From positions 1-6,430 of the forward strand of contig PWQF01000254.1 of assembly GCA_003556865.1 (NCBI GenBank): a stretch of DNA of 6,430 bases, read 5' to 3'. Shown here piece after piece: positions 1-6,430 of the stretch. The stretch is from Elusimicrobiota bacterium (GTDB lineage: Bacteria > CG03 > SLGR01 > PWQF01). How positions within the stretch are numbered: position 1 is the stretch's first letter; every line of letters starts with the position of its first letter. Position numbers and translations under genes: made by a program. The notes under the pieces were generated by a model that was given only the letters and a program-made list of their open reading frames with translations, was not told where the DNA came from and searched no databases.

Positions 1-3000
1 GGGGAAGAGGAGCAGGACTTAGCCGCTGAAACTGAACCGGAAGAGAAATCGCTTAAGGAAACTGCAGCAGAAGCCGCAAAATCAGGTATCAGGTCCGGAC
101 TGGGAGCTGCTTCGCAGGCCGCTTCGGAAATGGCTCAGGATGTGGCAGAGAAAGTTTTGCCTGACGGGCAAAAGGCCGAACCTGAAGCCGTAATAAAGCA
201 TGCCACCGAAACGCTTGCTGAAATTGTTCCTTCAGAACTTAAAGGCTCTCCGGAGCTGGCTTACCATATGGCCTATATCCTTTTACCCGGAACCCGGCGT
301 GCTTTCCCGGCTAACAGCGAGAAAGAAGTCCTGAAAGCTGTTATAGACAGCATAGCCCGTTTTTCTATACAGGCCTATAAAGAACTTCTTAGGGAAGGCC
401 GTCCGGATATAAGGTTTACCCCCTCCCAGGTGAGTCTGCTGACGGATAACGTTGAAACTTATCTGAATTCCCTTGGTTCCGAGGCAAGGGAGGAGGCCTT
501 AGAGCCTGCAGTTAATTTCTTTAAGATGATGCAGGAGAAATTTTATTACCAGATGATAGGGAGTCAGGGAGGGGAAGAGGCGCTTAATAAGATGAGAAAA
601 GATTTAAGTTCCGCAGATGAGGGGTCTCTCCTGGCCCGGGTCCTTTCCGGACTTATAAATAAATGGGAAACTATTTTCGAATGGGGTGAAGAAATAAAAG
701 GCCTTAAACCTGAAACCGAGCCTTATTTCTACCAGCTGGAAGGGGCAAAATTTATTCTTGAAAACCGCCGGATTCTTAATGCCGATGAAATGGGCACCGG
801 AAAGACTCTTCAGGCTCTTATGGCCAAAGCCAATTCCTCCGGTGATATATGGGATACCCTGGTGGTGGTTCCGGATATAGCCAAATCTGTCTGGGGCGAC
901 CAGATATTTGAGCACCTTAGCGAGGAGTTTGATGTTTACGTGCTGGGTGCCAAAGAATATGATGAGCCCCTTAATGATATAAAAAGCATAAATACAAAAG
1001 AAGATATAAACGACTTTCTGCTTGATTGGATGGCAATTCAGAGGGGTGAAAAAGAGAAGCCGGAAAAAAGAAGGATAGTTATAGTGAATTATGACCAGTT
1101 AAGGCTTTATACCGACCTTCAGGGAGATTATCTCTTTTCAAAGCTTACCCCGGATTTTCTTGTGGCCGATGAAGCCGATGCTGTTAAGAACCCCGCCGCC
1201 CAGAGGTCAGAGGCATTCAGGGGTATCCAGTCTAAATACCTGGCCCTTCTTACCGGGACCCCTATTTCAAACAGGCCGCAGGAAATAATATCTTACCTGG
1301 AAATGCTTGTAACACCGGAAAGCGGACTTGAAGAGACTGTTTTTAAGGACTCAATTTTCAGCAGTGTAAAAGATATGTCTGAAAAGATGCAGAGAAACTG
1401 GGAAAACCCCGAGTATATTATGGAGCTGCATAAGGTTGTACAGAGGGTTATGATAAGAAGAAGAAAGGAAAATGTACTTACCGATATACCCGAGACCGAT
1501 TCTGTCAGAGTATTGCTTGATCCGGTAAAAGGGGAAATGAATATAGGGGGGCAGGTTACATCTCTTGGCGATTTTACTCCTCAATATGAATTTTACCGCA
1601 GTATAGCCGACGACCGGGATATGGATGAGATCAACCGGTGGGCCAGGAAAAGGGCCGCAGCGGATGATCCGTCACGCCTGCCGGGGGGAGAAGAAGTTGA
1701 ATCAATAAAAACTGCCGCCGCTGATAAAATTGTTGATGAGAATTTATCAGCCGGAGAAAGCATAGCCCTCTTTACCTACTACAAGTCAGATGCCCGCCGG
1801 CTGAGGGAAAGATACAGGAAGAAATATGGATCCGAAGCAGTGGCCTATGTGGAAGGCGGAATGTCATCCTCTGAAAAAAGAAAGGAGTGGCAGGGGAAAT
1901 TTCAGGAGGGTCCGGCCCGGATATTTATATCCACACTTGATTCTTCAGCCTATGCCATACATCTTACCAAGGCCGACAGCATGCTTATTACTTCACTTCC
2001 CGCAAATCCGGATAAGCTTCAGCAGGCAAAGGCCAGAATAGCCCGCATAGACAAGGATTTTAATAAGCCCGGGCAGCGAAAAAATGTTTATACGCTTATC
2101 TGGGATACGGAAGATTCAGTTGACAGGCAGATAGAAGAGCTTCTTTACAAAAAGACGCTGGCTATGGAACTGGCCCTGGGCGGGGTGACGGTATCCTTTG
2201 AGGAAATGCCTCTTTCAAAACTGGATAAACTGGCCGGAGTTGAAGAGAAAATGTTAAAGGAGGAGGAAGAAGAGATTGAAGAGGAGATAGTTTACGGGGA
2301 CCTTGCACGGGAAGATGTGCTTGTTCAGGGACTGGAAAAATTAAACTGGAATACACTGGCCTCTTATATGAGAAAAATAAGGGAGACCGTCTATACAAAA
2401 GATTTTATGGATCTCCGGAAAGATAATTTTACTTCCGATCCGGATTCTCTTTTTCTGGCTGCCAATTATGGTGAAAAGACCATCTCCTATTCCTATGGGG
2501 TTCCCCTGGAGACTGTTTCGGAGCGCCATAACGAGAAAAATTTTGGTGAAGGAAATACTCTTTTTATAAAGGAAGAAGCTACACATCAGAAACTTAAGCA
2601 GCAGGACAGGCAACTTGTGGAAAATATGATAAGGGAGCAGCTTAAAGATTTTGCCCGGCTCAATGATTTCCGTTATATCTCCTACCTGGACGGTGAAGGC
2701 AATTACCTTACAGAAGAAATCTCTTCACAGGAGCCGCCCTTTGACGGCGGGGATATAGATTCAGTTTTCGATGAATGGTCATTTGAGTCGTCTGAGGGGA
2801 AATACGACCCGGTTAAACTTAAGGTAAAAGGAGCCAGGAATCCTTCCGATAACAGGGACCGTGAAGAGACCCGTCTCAGAAATCTTTCCCGGGAGCATCC
2901 CCTTTACAGAACCCTGGGAAGTAATGGTAAAGCAGGCTTTGAGAACAGGGCCGCCTCTTTTGCCGGTTTTTCCCTGGATTCTCATAAATGGCTTAAGAAG

Positions 3001-3837
3001 GCCGGTATATCCGCTGCGGTGGTACGGGGGGATTACCTCTGGAACGAAGATCAGCAGGTTATGGAAATGATTCTTGTTGATACCAAATCAGAAGGGCATA
3101 AGCCTCCCAGGGATATAAATGAGGGAGACCTTGAGGGCATAGGTGAGGAGTTCCTGGAAAATTACCGGAAAGGACTGATAAGAGGCAAAATAGTGGGAAG
3201 ACAGTGGCTCAACAGCTCGGTATCCCCCTTAAGGGATGAGATGCTTCTTGATATTATGCTTAACGGATTTCCTCTCTGGGGAACTTATTACAGTCATATA
3301 AAAAATATAAGGCTTATAACTAAAAAGAATATATGGAAATATGCCGCCTCCCTGCTGGCTGACGGAAAACCCCTTCAGACCAACAGGGTCCTGGGGCTCT
3401 TGAGCCCCTCCTTTGCCCGCGCCGCTATGGGGCTTGAGAAGGTAGCCGAAAATATTTCTTTTCAGAGGCTCGGCAGCCTGGCCAAAGAGAATCTTAAAAG
3501 AGCTCTTCCCGGGGCTATGGTGCCGGAGCCGGTTTTATACAGTATTGATGAGGTGGCTCCCGAAGAGCCGCTTACCGGCGGAATTATAAGAGGAAGCAAG
3601 TTTGCCCTTTTCAGCCGTGTTCTTGGCAGGCGCATAAGGTCTGAAAATGAAATAACGGCTGAAATACTGGAAGAACTTCTTTCTAAATCCCGGGATCTTC
3701 CTTACAATGAATCCGTATATCAGTCTTCCGTTGACTGGGCGCTGGGGGTAGAAGGATATATTCAGAAGGCGCGGATAGGGGAATATTTAAGCTGGGGCCA
3801 GACCGTTGACGGGACAGATATAAAAGTAAAACTGTAA
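1..3837 (+). CDS. SNF2-family (SF2) ATPase/helicase-like large protein, 5' end outside the window
   Basis: The frame is open from base 1 to the TAA at 3835-3837, giving 1278 codons. The ATG at base 130 is unlikely to be the real start: no Shine-Dalgarno sequence precedes it, and the 43 codons before it have the same Glu/Ala-rich, helical character as those after it. Counting the first in-window codon as residue 1, a helical region (about 1-240) precedes a two-lobed SNF2 ATPase core (about 243-720). A Glu-rich linker (about 747-767) and about 510 unrecognised residues follow. SNF2 proteins use ATP to translocate on double-stranded DNA and remodel bound proteins; bacterial members include RapA and subunits of phage-defence systems. 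No signal peptide is visible in the part seen and no membrane segment is evident, so a cytoplasmic location is likely. The next open frame begins directly after the stop, in the same frame. The ATPase call is firm; the cellular role is unknown. Confidence 0.9.
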   Translation, partial: GEEEQDLAAETEPEEKSLKETAAEAAKSGIRSGLGAASQAASEMAQDVAEKVLPDGQKAEPEAVIKHATETLAEIVPSELKGSPELAYHMAYILLPGTRRAFPANSEKEVLKAVIDSIARFSIQAYKELLREGRPDIRFTPSQVSLLTDNVETYLNSLGSEAREEALEPAVNFFKMMQEKFYYQMIGSQGGEEALNKMRKDLSSADEGSLLARVLSGLINKWETIFEWGEEIKGLKPETEPYFYQLEGAKFILENRRILNADEMGTGKTLQALMAKANSSGDIWDTLVVVPDIAKSVWGDQIFEHLSEEFDVYVLGAKEYDEPLNDIKSINTKEDINDFLLDWMAIQRGEKEKPEKRRIVIVNYDQLRLYTDLQGDYLFSKLTPDFLVADEADAVKNPAAQRSEAFRGIQSKYLALLTGTPISNRPQEIISYLEMLVTPESGLEETVFKDSIFSSVKDMSEKMQRNWENPEYIMELHKVVQRVMIRRRKENVLTDIPETDSVRVLLDPVKGEMNIGGQVTSLGDFTPQYEFYRSIADDRDMDEINRWARKRAAADDPSRLPGGEEVESIKTAAADKIVDENLSAGESIALFTYYKSDARRLRERYRKKYGSEAVAYVEGGMSSSEKRKEWQGKFQEGPARIFISTLDSSAYAIHLTKADSMLITSLPANPDKLQQAKARIARIDKDFNKPGQRKNVYTLIWDTEDSVDRQIEELLYKKTLAMELALGGVTVSFEEMPLSKLDKLAGVEEKMLKEEEEEIEEEIVYGDLAREDVLVQGLEKLNWNTLASYMRKIRETVYTKDFMDLRKDNFTSDPDSLFLAANYGEKTISYSYGVPLETVSERHNEKNFGEGNTLFIKEEATHQKLKQQDRQLVENMIREQLKDFARLNDFRYISYLDGEGNYLTEEISSQEPPFDGGDIDSVFDEWSFESSEGKYDPVKLKVKGARNPSDNRDREETRLRNLSREHPLYRTLGSNGKAGFENRAASFAGFSLDSHKWLKKAGISAAVVRGDYLWNEDQQVMEMILVDTKSEGHKPPRDINEGDLEGIGEEFLENYRKGLIRGKIVGRQWLNSSVSPLRDEMLLDIMLNGFPLWGTYYSHIKNIRLITKKNIWKYAASLLADGKPLQTNRVLGLLSPSFARAAMGLEKVAENISFQRLGSLAKENLKRALPGAMVPEPVLYSIDEVAPEEPLTGGIIRGSKFALFSRVLGRRIRSENEITAEILEELLSKSRDLPYNESVYQSSVDWALGVEGYIQKARIGEYLSWGQTVDGTDIKVKL
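730..2160 (+). other. SNF2/SF2 helicase core domain within the left gene
   Basis: The motifs appear in the expected order. YQLEGAKFI (from about 730) matches the 'hQ..g..' entry of SNF2 proteins. ADEMGTGKT (781-807) is motif I with Walker lysine at 802-804. TLVVVPDIAKSVW (from 859) is motif Ia. VADEAD (1162-1179) is motif II in a DEAD form. LLTGTPISN (from 1246) is motif III, followed by a typical 'RPQEIISYLEML' helix. The second lobe begins near SIALFTYYKSDARRL (from about 1759, motif IV). IFISTLDSS (1921-1947) is motif V, and QQAKARIARIDK (2020-2055) is motif VI with two arginines at 2035-2037 and 2044-2046, where the arginine finger is expected. NVYTLIWDTEDSVDRQIEEL (from about 2083) resembles the usual 'V.vy.li..gTiEe.i' ending of the second lobe. 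No key ATPase residue is obviously missing, so catalytic activity is plausible. Confidence 0.88.
2239..3834 (+). other. Glu-rich linker and unrecognised C-terminal region of the SNF2 protein
   Basis: After the helicase core, a run of glutamates (about 2239-2300, including KEEEEEIEEEI) looks like a charged helical linker. The next 510 or so residues do not match any family I recognise. Points a searcher could use are ANYGEKTISYSYGVP (from about 2461), DFRYISYLDGEGNYL (from about 2665), KWLKKAGISAAVVRGDYLWN (from about 2986), MEMILVDTKSEGHKPP (from about 3061) and LNGFPLWGTYYSHI (from about 3259). Alternating hydrophobic strands with polar loops suggest a folded alpha/beta domain, not disorder. 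A substrate-binding or nuclease-like module would be usual here in SNF2 proteins, but I see no catalytic motif to support either. Confidence 0.5.
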
Positions 3838-3978
3838 GTAATAAATATTCCGGAGCTTATAGAAAACGGTGACCATTACTGTCTTTCGCTAACTGCAAGG
3901 GACAGGGAAAACGAGTCCGCGGGGGAAGAAGCATACAGAATTTTAATAAACTCGGCGGTTTTTGAAGGCGGGGAAAAG
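3838..3978 (+). other. in-frame open segment between the TAA and the first ATG, probably coding
   Basis: These 47 codons follow the TAA directly, stay in the same frame as both genes and have no ATG, GTG, TTG or CTG codon. The translation (VINIPELIENG..., ending ...AVFEGGEK) looks like protein: it has mixed hydrophobic and charged residues and frequent AAC, GAC and TAC codons like its neighbours. If the right gene starts at ATG 3979, this is a 5' untranslated spacer. If not, either translation starts at a rare codon (ATA 3841 or ATT 3847, neither with a Shine-Dalgarno sequence), or the segment is the middle of one longer gene broken by the TAA. I see no promoter or terminator hairpin in it. 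Confidence 0.5.
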
Positions 3979-6430
3979 ATGGTAGCCGATGTGCTCGGCA
4001 GCGAACTTAGCCGCATAGACGGAAAAGTTAGGGGAAAGGACTCCGATGAAGTGGAGGAGAATATACGAAAGTTCTGGGAAGAGAAAGAGGTTATAGAGAA
4101 AAAGAAAGGCGGTAAAAGCGCTGTAAAAGATTACTCCCGCAACCAGAAATACTTTGAGATTTTTGAAGAATACGGTGCCGGGGTAAGAATACTTCCCAAG
4201 AACGCTCTGGAAAACACGGAACTGGTGCGGGCGGCGCAGGGAGTGAGCAGTTACGCCAAAAGGAAATATTTTCAGCGGGCAGTAAAAAATATGAATCTGG
4301 AAAAAGAACAGGTTAAACCTGTTCTTATAGGTTTTGAGGACGGGGCAGAAGGTAATGCCCGTTTTGCTGCCGAGGTAGTTGCCGGAAACAATATTGACGC
4401 AGTTTTCAGCCGGCAACCTTTATCGCTTCCGGCCATCTCCTGGGAGATTGAAAACGATGATTATTCTATGGGAATTTTTCTTAAAAATAACGGCGAAATA
4501 ATAATCTTAGGCTCGCACGGGGAAATTGTTCCGGAAAGCATTTATAATAAAATTCACAGCCTTTCAGGGATGGCCGGGGAGTTCCGGGTGATGAATTACG
4601 ATTCGGCTACAGAAGCCCGGAGAATAAAAGAGAAGAACTGGATCAACTCCTCATATTTCCGCCAGCTTATTAAAAACTTTGATATCTCGCTTATTCAGAA
4701 AGCGGGGACGGGGCTGGTTCTTGACCTGCGCAACCTGCCCGGAATTTCCGAGGAAGATATAAGTTCTCTTCCCCTGGATATAACACTCATCCTGCCCGGG
4801 GATACCCGCTCCGTGGAAGATATAGAGGCAAAAGAAGGCCAGCTTAAAGTTGAAATATTGGAAGATGGAAGAAGTTTCAGGGTCTGGGATTCAGACGGCC
4901 GTGAAATGAGACTTAACGATCTAAGCGTTCTGCTTAACTGGTATCTATGCGAGCATTACGGCTACAGGGGGGATATAATAAAGACGGCTTATTCAAGCCC
5001 CCTGCTTGACCGGATTGCCGACCGCTACGGAACGGAGACAGCTCTTTCCCATACGGGGGAAGGCTATTTAATAACACCCCTCTTAAGCTGGAATGATTAT
5101 CTTTCCCAGTTACTGATGCTGGCTGAGCTTAAGGCCCGCACCGGAAAGCGTTTAAATGAAAACCTTGACCGGATTCGGAAAGAACTCCAGGCCCCTGGAT
5201 TTTCTTTCGCCAGCAGCTTTAAAGTTCATTACGAGGATGCAGAATCAGTAAAGAAATTCTTCAGGGATGAGAATTTTGAAAAAACGCCGGGATATGAGTT
5301 CCGGACCGGGGAGGAGCGTTTTGACCGGGGCCTTAAGATTGAATACAAGGACGGCAGCTGGCTTCTGATTAACTTTAAGGACAATACTGTTCAATTTTAT
5401 GCCGAGGCTTCAGAAGAGAGCCGGGCCAGGCAGCTTGTAGACTCTTTTGAAATGAAGCTCAGGGACAGGGTCCAGCCGGAATTTTCTTTAAAAAGACTTC
5501 TTTCACCCTCCCCCGTAAAGATCGGACTCCTCTTCTCCGTGATAGGATCTGCTATGGTTGCAGCTGCCTTTATACTTCCGGCTTTTTATCCTGCGCTGAA
5601 CTGGTACATATTCGGAAAACCCCTGGGAGGTATTGTAAGCCTCTTTTCCATGCTTGCTCCACGCTTTATTGATAGCCTGCCCCAGGTAATGAGGTTTTTT
5701 GCATTTTATGTCCCCATGTTTGCTGTGGGCGCCTCCAGGGGACTGCTGGTTACTCTTACCAATACAAAAATGTGGATTGAACAGTGGGGCAGAATGAAAG
5801 GTAAATTTGAACTGCACCCGGATATAGCGGAAATGCCTTCGGTCCCGGAAGGGACAAGCCCCTGGAAAGGTAAGTTTGAAGGATTTCGCTTTGTGGAAGC
5901 GGAAGAAGATATAAGGAATCCTGCCAAGCTTAATATAGCTGTTAACAAGGAATACTATACAGCGCTTCCGCATACCCTTCAGATAATAGCCTTTCAGCAT
6001 GAGCTGAGTGTGGCTATGGTAGAGAATTTTATAGGAATGCAGGCCATACGCAACTTGCTGGGGCTTACTATCTCATATTTCCTGAGACTGATAATAATAG
6101 CGCCGGTATTGATACATCCGGCAGCTATGATTTTGGATATGGTTTATCTTTTCAGGAGGATAAGGGATAAGGCGGTACAGAAACCGGGTACTGTTTACTA
6201 TTCCGGTTCAAAGATAATATGGCCCGAGGATACCGGTGAAATTATGGGTAAAAAATATGATTCCATCTGGACCCCGGCCAGGGTCAGGAGTTTTAACGAC
6301 AGGCCTTCGGGTGTACCGGACGGTGATACCATTTATATGGATGACGGGACGGCAATAAGGCTGGCCGGTCTGGAGCCGGGTGAAATGGAGAAAGAAGAGA
6401 GGGGAGCAAAGGAAGCCCGGGATTTTCTAA
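3979..6430 (+). CDS. membrane protein with a degenerate phosphohexomutase domain, an M48-like segment and a SNase-like domain; 3' end outside the window
   Basis: At least 817 codons from ATG 3979, with no stop before the window edge; the frame is in fact open from 3838. A modest purine-rich GGGGAAAAG precedes the ATG, so this is the first usable start, but not a convincing one. Domain order from that ATG: a charged segment (residues 1-55), a phosphohexomutase-like fold without its active-site loops (about 56-495), hydrophobic segments near 515-537 and 571-593, an M48-like stretch with a broken HExxH at 674-678, a long hydrophobic segment (693-725), and a SNase-like start (about 770 onward). 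The hydrophobic segments predict an inner-membrane protein with large soluble parts; three segments would place the mutase-like and SNase-like parts on opposite sides, though the count is uncertain. It lies just downstream of the SNF2 gene in the same frame. I cannot assign a function; loss of catalytic loops suggests a binding or structural role. Confidence 0.85.
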   Translation, partial: MVADVLGSELSRIDGKVRGKDSDEVEENIRKFWEEKEVIEKKKGGKSAVKDYSRNQKYFEIFEEYGAGVRILPKNALENTELVRAAQGVSSYAKRKYFQRAVKNMNLEKEQVKPVLIGFEDGAEGNARFAAEVVAGNNIDAVFSRQPLSLPAISWEIENDDYSMGIFLKNNGEIIILGSHGEIVPESIYNKIHSLSGMAGEFRVMNYDSATEARRIKEKNWINSSYFRQLIKNFDISLIQKAGTGLVLDLRNLPGISEEDISSLPLDITLILPGDTRSVEDIEAKEGQLKVEILEDGRSFRVWDSDGREMRLNDLSVLLNWYLCEHYGYRGDIIKTAYSSPLLDRIADRYGTETALSHTGEGYLITPLLSWNDYLSQLLMLAELKARTGKRLNENLDRIRKELQAPGFSFASSFKVHYEDAESVKKFFRDENFEKTPGYEFRTGEERFDRGLKIEYKDGSWLLINFKDNTVQFYAEASEESRARQLVDSFEMKLRDRVQPEFSLKRLLSPSPVKIGLLFSVIGSAMVAAAFILPAFYPALNWYIFGKPLGGIVSLFSMLAPRFIDSLPQVMRFFAFYVPMFAVGASRGLLVTLTNTKMWIEQWGRMKGKFELHPDIAEMPSVPEGTSPWKGKFEGFRFVEAEEDIRNPAKLNIAVNKEYYTALPHTLQIIAFQHELSVAMVENFIGMQAIRNLLGLTISYFLRLIIIAPVLIHPAAMILDMVYLFRRIRDKAVQKPGTVYYSGSKIIWPEDTGEIMGKKYDSIWTPARVRSFNDRPSGVPDGDTIYMDDGTAIRLAGLEPGEMEKEERGAKEARDFL
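4140..5460 (+). other. pseudo-phosphohexomutase domain (phosphoglucomutase/phosphomannomutase fold, active-site loops lost)
   Basis: Family enzymes interconvert hexose 1- and 6-phosphates through a phosphoserine. The four-domain scaffold is readable. EYGAGVR (4168-4188) sits where FGTSGxRG opens the family. VLIGFEDGAEGNARFAAEVV (from 4321) matches 'vvvGyDtR..s..fa'. SLPAISWEI then GIFL (4471-4482) match 'PTPAls.ai' and 'GimI'. RVWDSDGREM through LLNWYLCEHYGYRGDIIKT and LLDRIADRYG (about 4879-5031) match the third-domain 'vvDedGrfl...LL..yl.e..gw.g.vvkT...s.lLdriA..yG'. GSWLLI and YAEAS (about 5353-5412) match the fourth domain. The catalytic parts are gone: the TASHNP loop is excised between GIFL and KNNG; DGDADR is reduced to EDGRS (4861-4875); the GEESG loop is shortened around HTGEGYL (5050-5070); RPSGTEP is replaced by NFKDN (5371-5385). 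Catalysis is very unlikely. The fold assignment comes from motif order, not a profile search. Confidence 0.75.
5521..6153 (+). other. membrane region with a degenerate M48/HtpX-like metalloprotease segment
   Basis: Two hydrophobic stretches come first: IGLLFSVIGSAMVAAAFIL (from 5521) and MRFFAFYVPMFAVGA (from 5689), with a weaker one near 5620-5670. A soluble segment follows, then NIAVNKEYYTALPHTLQIIA (5932-5991), FQHELSVAMVEN (5992-6027) and a 33-residue hydrophobic segment (6055-6153). In M48/HtpX proteases, two N-terminal membrane helices precede a strand-turn-helix carrying HExxH, usually HELSH or HEISH, and another hydrophobic segment follows soon after. The order and spacing fit, but the second zinc histidine is valine (GTG at 6010-6012), and I see no downstream third ligand of the ExxxD type. 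If the relationship is real, this is an inactive protease. It could instead be an unrelated membrane domain in which HE is coincidental. Confidence 0.35.
6277..6430 (+). other. staphylococcal-nuclease-like (TNase) domain, cut by the window edge
   Basis: VPDGDTIYMDDGTAIRLAGL (6313-6372) is a close match to the opening of SNase/TNase domains, typically V.DGDTi.l..g..iRLaGIdaPE. The later EARDFL (6415-6429) matches the helix that follows it. DGDT carries the calcium aspartate equivalent to Asp21 of S. aureus nuclease, and the arginine of IRL (6358-6360) corresponds to Arg35. The usual GIDAPE is here GLEPGE: the second calcium aspartate position becomes Glu, Thr/Ala-Pro becomes Pro-Gly, and the catalytic Glu43 equivalent is kept (6382-6384). 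The Arg87 region lies beyond the window, so activity cannot be judged. Active members cut DNA or RNA with calcium and often act outside the cytoplasm. Confidence 0.7.

Follow-up and report, generated by a model that had tools for sequence, protein, structure and literature searches.

This locus raises the question of what becomes of an enzyme domain when its fold outlasts its active site. An initial annotation of the window (the whole 6,430-nt stretch of DNA analyzed here) had proposed that it encodes a phosphohexomutase fold whose catalytic loops have been lost, and that the product is a structural or ligand-sensing pseudoenzyme. Homology searches, alignments and an alignment-guided structural model support the first of these proposals. 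The second divides: with a probability of roughly 0.6, we favor a catalytically dead pseudo-phosphohexomutase domain whose role within a very long protein would be to space its parts rigidly or to bind other proteins, and ligand sensing appears the weaker half.

Reading frames and sequence context

Frame 1 of the plus strand is open from position 1 to a TAA ending at 3837, and reopens at 3838 to run to the end of the window, with its first ATG at 3979. This second stretch comprises 864 codons without a stop, in agreement with the intact reading frame noted in the initial annotation. We also considered and rejected a pseudogene disrupted by stops within the domain, which holds none and whose codon usage resembles that of the upstream frame. 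The TAA at 3835-3837 is the single stop dividing the two stretches of frame 1, and 47 stop-free codons (3838-3978) precede the ATG. The frames on either side may be one giant gene, with the TAA either a true stop or an error of assembly; alternatively, translation of the second could begin at a codon other than this ATG. Given this TAA, the SNF2 helicase encoded upstream may or may not belong to the same protein as the mutase-like domain. Coordinates of all features are collected in Table 1.

Table 1. Features of the window, with positions counted from its first nucleotide.
Feature	Positions	Strand	Evidence or remark
Upstream frame, 5' open	1..3837	+	SNF2-rel_dom residues 244-512, Helicase_C residues 577-683 (Pfam)
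Degenerate four-domain phosphohexomutase (PGM/PMM) domain, frame 1	4171..5472, borders approximate	+	
Domain I, starting YGAGVRI where FGTDGWRG is expected	4171..4593, border approximate	+	A3 alignment; weak PGM_PMM_I match, E 0.076
Junction without phosphoserine loop TASHNPP, GIFL joined to KNNG	4482..4483	+	7-residue gap; profile alignment agrees
GSHGE, possible displaced Ser-His remnant (rival alignment)	4510..4524	+	Pairwise alignments
Junction without 9 residues of domain II (SMYGAGVGY of P0003)	4725..4726	+	Alignment
Junction without 5 residues of domain II (QPEPI of P0003)	4803..4804	+	Alignment
DGRSFR replacing metal loop DGDADR	4864..4881	+	Alignment
Domain III core, best-preserved stretch	4921..5076	+	PGM_PMM_III match; borders converted from match
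Junction without 20-residue sugar loop (ALIGGEESGGYGFRGNVPER of P0003)	5094..5095	+	Alignment
NFKDN replacing phosphate loop RFSGTEP, two residues missing	5371..5385	+	Alignment
Hydrophobic membrane-like segment	5521..5577	+	Hydropathy 2.4, 19 residues
Hydrophobic membrane-like segment	6088..6144	+	Hydropathy 2.19, 19 residues

The upstream frame encodes an SNF2-type helicase with the motif strings DEMGTGKT, DEAD, LLTGTP and QAKARIARI in place. The nearest NCBIfam models (helicase, pilus regulator and anti-phage SNF2 families) score far under their cut-offs. An anti-phage role was considered for this helicase, with 25 PADLOC models matching it (ZorD, DpdE, DrmD and others; best E 6.5e-23), and was rejected: the matches lie within the helicase core, and NCBIfam models for the corresponding families score far under cut-off. 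The ~530 residues that follow the helicase (2236-3834) have no match in Pfam, PADLOC, PHROGs or NCBIfam.

Downstream of the mutase-like domain are two strongly hydrophobic segments (5521-5577 and 6088-6144), by whose hydropathy the long protein may be placed at a membrane. The residues at the end of the frame (6310-6429, VPDGDTIYMDDGTAIRLAGLEPGE...) presumably resemble the start of a staphylococcal-nuclease-like domain; Pfam and PDB searches with this cut piece gave no match, and one PHROG of unknown function matched it weakly (E 0.0021). Searches of the flanking pieces against PDB sequences returned nothing convincing (best E 0.026, to a splicing factor tail), the same pieces contain no RNA family at gathering level, and no tandem repeats were found.

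Homology to the alpha-D-phosphohexomutase superfamily

In alignments A1 and A3, the landmarks of the four PGM/PMM domains are collinear and in the correct order, as initially described. The 467-residue translation of 4099-5499, which occupies residues 30-500 of the longer frame in the protein search, matches phosphohexomutases along its length in a protein database of ~5.8 billion sequences, where 7996 candidates were scored and 10 had E <= 1. Three of these fell below 0.01: P0001, a nucleotidyltransferase-PGM fusion (E 2.2e-6), P0002 (4.2e-5) and P0003 (2.8e-3). The NCBIfam model TIGR03990 (Arch_GlmM) matched with an E-value of 2.2e-7 and 30.1 bits, its cut-off of 439 being far higher. Scanning with the Pfam families PGM_PMM I to IV, which the initial annotation had suggested, recovered part of the architecture. 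With piece III scanned by itself, PGM_PMM_III exceeded its cut-off of 20.7 bits with a score of 21.5; in longer pieces it stayed under, at 16.9 and 15.3 bits. PGM_PMM_I was the sole, weak Pfam match of piece I, and for pieces II and IV none of the PGM families gave a match. Homology extends over the four-domain architecture, and the one curated cut-off passed is that of PGM_PMM_III with the isolated piece.

Scored with a profile made from 12 canonical enzymes and not from the query itself, the query reached 69.3 bits against a maximum of 6.7 in 5000 shuffles, a result by which we reject chance resemblance. Ten of the 12 profile members are the query's own best matches, so this score is somewhat inflated, an effect absent from the curated NCBIfam and Pfam models. 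The three stretches of the query matched by the profile are collinear, and every other six-frame piece of at least 40 residues in the window scores below zero. Judged by sequence homology, the segment belongs by descent to the alpha-D-phosphohexomutase superfamily.

The structure prediction that had also been suggested points the same way when guided by an alignment. With the 12 canonical enzymes as that alignment, which biases the model to their fold, the query sequence is compatible with the phosphohexomutase fold and models well. Foldseek TM-scores of the guided model are middling (about 0.5 to 0.67), and its matches to phosphohexomutases span the whole length in the four-domain order characteristic of the superfamily. 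A single-sequence model of 515 residues had a pLDDT of 35.6, and the lone sequence, searched against solved structures, found nothing relevant (one match, to a period circadian protein, E 0.23).

Loss of the active-site loops

Canonical enzymes P0001-P0010 share with the query the four-domain order and the fold over the whole length, at 21-24% identity. In contrast to them, the query retains none of the four catalytic loops, each being lost or overwritten, and is embedded in a longer open frame. The 12 canonical relatives retain recognizable loops, including two from IMG/VR that are 16-17% identical to the query.

The metal loop, DGDADR with its three aspartates in canonical enzymes, keeps the first D, the G and the R. 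With two of three metal aspartates lost, it is degraded as the initial annotation had claimed, although the residues are those listed in Table 1 and not EDGRS. The sugar-binding GEESG loop, previously described as shortened, is instead wholly absent in a 20-residue gap. At the phosphate loop, RxSGTEP is aligned with NFK--DN, and the earlier reading of NFKDN was correct. The two domain II deletions and the replacement of the VGFK motif by TGEG, seen in the alignment of 13 sequences, are losses beyond those listed before.

The phosphoserine loop allows more than one alignment. TASHNPP, and with it the (T/S)-x-S-H-N motif, is absent from the query in A3, which matches the clean excision initially described; other alignments would make GEIIILGSHGE a serine loop with Ser-His, and thus a rearranged enzyme in which some phosphoryl chemistry may survive. 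BLASTP to P0003 aligns GSHGE with TASHNP, and 6 of 12 pairwise alignments place its serine on the catalytic serine, with GSHGE 14 residues further on in three and unaligned in the other three. The profile alignment, however, also shifts GSHGE 14 residues further on, to the strand after the loop, with high posterior, and the guided model, itself built on a MAFFT alignment, gives strand, turn, strand and then GSHGE. Even in the rival alignment, LGSHGE is without the T/S and the N of the motif, and the loops for metal, sugar and phosphate are missing or heavily damaged whichever way the serine region is aligned. We consider a surviving enzyme very unlikely. Among the several alignments we favor the clean deletion, with GSHGE as a possible displaced Ser-His remnant.

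Sequence comparison, supported by a model, shows a domain that has kept its four-lobed body and lost its catalytic loops. For a domain hollowed in this way, we strongly infer that the mutase reaction would not be plausible.

Selected pseudoenzyme or relaxed decay

The initial annotation had argued that loss at the catalytic loops speaks against random decay. Relative to the canonical set in the alignment of 13, the query carries 11 deletion runs totaling 54 residues. Under random placement, deleted residues are enriched in the four loops (16/31, expected 3.7, p 0.0054) and in seven motifs (23/49, expected 5.6, p 0.00055). Counted as runs, 5 of the 11 touch the seven motifs (p 0.012), but the 3 of 11 that touch the four loops do not reach significance (p 0.077). 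At canonical columns conserved at >=90%, the query is identical at 9/32 motif positions and 14/33 positions elsewhere (Fisher p 0.17; p 0.45 and 0.22 at two other conservation thresholds). Motif and scaffold identity are similarly low, and therefore the whole domain has drifted.

Searches for relatives bear on the same point. No close relative of either the helicase half or the mutase-like half was found in the protein database, GTDB contigs or IMG/VR, and none with the same hollowed form in these or in plasmids and phages. Pattern matches in GTDB genome contigs numbered 28 and 15, of which none was confirmed as a close relative, and IMG/VR likewise gave none confirmed; an IMG/VR search led by the canonical enzymes yielded two loci from 78 pattern matches, both with loops intact. 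Plasmids contributed two weak matches, the better one (E 5e-8) over the place that scores with PGM_PMM_III and within a 530-codon open frame, and phages one, an annotated pgcA. The protein searches admitted lengths of ~449-1430 and ~1178-3750 residues and each scored ~8000 candidates sharing most words; longer relatives, or those sharing few words, would escape them.

Because the sequence is an orphan, with such weak matches alone, relaxed decay is a real rival: the domain would be a relic without function of its own, whose frame in a long and rapidly drifting protein stays open because a downstream part is needed. The low retention of scaffold columns and the in-frame TAA shortly upstream fit this account. 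It is countered by the clustering of deleted residues in the active-site loops, by a sequence that still models well on the fold under alignment guidance and by the long stop-free frame. Weighing these, we regard decay as a minority explanation, somewhat unlikely but the most serious competitor to a retained structural domain.

A proposed structural module and its possible host

Most likely, the domain is a structural or protein-binding part, and not an enzyme, of a long multi-domain protein of bacterial type. By sequence it descends from a PGM/PMM enzyme and keeps the four-lobed body; gone are the nucleophile loop, the phosphate loop and the sugar loop in its entirety, together with two of the three metal aspartates. 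Its most likely role now, next to the membrane-like segments, is to space parts of a very long multi-domain host rigidly or to bind other proteins; that host perhaps also holds the SNF2 helicase. Solved GlmM-CdaA complexes reportedly show a phosphohexomutase fold in protein-protein contact.

Among the literature matches listed, no inactive bacterial phosphohexomutase is reported, and PMC10211241 mentions neither phosphoglucomutase, phosphohexomutase, PGM5 nor phosphomannomutase. The available part of PMC7761743 describes PGM5 (aciculin) of vertebrates as a protein with the phosphohexomutase fold, no mutase activity and a structural role, associated with large cytoskeletal proteins. The same part reports that inactive PGM5 still binds glucose 1-phosphate, which would suit a sensor that takes up a sugar phosphate in its cleft and passes a signal on to the remaining protein. 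However, PGM5 retains the four loops with small changes, according to the available parts of PMC7761743 and PMC5570346, whereas in the query whole loops are gone, the sugar loop being absent and the phosphate loop overwritten. With loops and substrate binding kept in PGM5, the query is therefore the more extreme case; since it has lost the very loops that make contact with sugar and phosphate, we consider ligand sensing unlikely. We claim no special kinship to PGM5, of which herring structures rank 40th to 42nd among the best 50 entries listed for the structural search. In the available part of PMC5570346, a survey of human paralogs, it is the conserved four active-site regions that establish superfamily membership.

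The host finds a parallel in the giant open reading frames of Omnitrophota, which the available part of PMC10066038 describes as very long and poorly conserved, one with 42 predicted membrane helices. Like the query, they combine great length, membrane-like segments, few recognizable domains and poor conservation; the main text on these giants, as available, mentions no helicase, SNF2, phosphoglucomutase or phosphomannomutase. A bolder form of the structural reading, tentative and on balance doubtful, is that a giant membrane-anchored SNF2-helicase protein recruited a mutase and emptied its active site, keeping the body for mechanical or protein-docking use alone. Judged by the literature matches listed, such a module would be the first in a prokaryote and the most thoroughly stripped phosphohexomutase reported.

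That the body persists with none of its four active-site regions intact shows how far this scaffold is separable from its chemistry. It also carries a warning that curated domain models miss such relatives, as one of the four Pfam domains passes its cut-off, and that as a cut piece. If relatives exist, the idea that enzyme folds are recycled as building blocks in very long bacterial proteins becomes testable.
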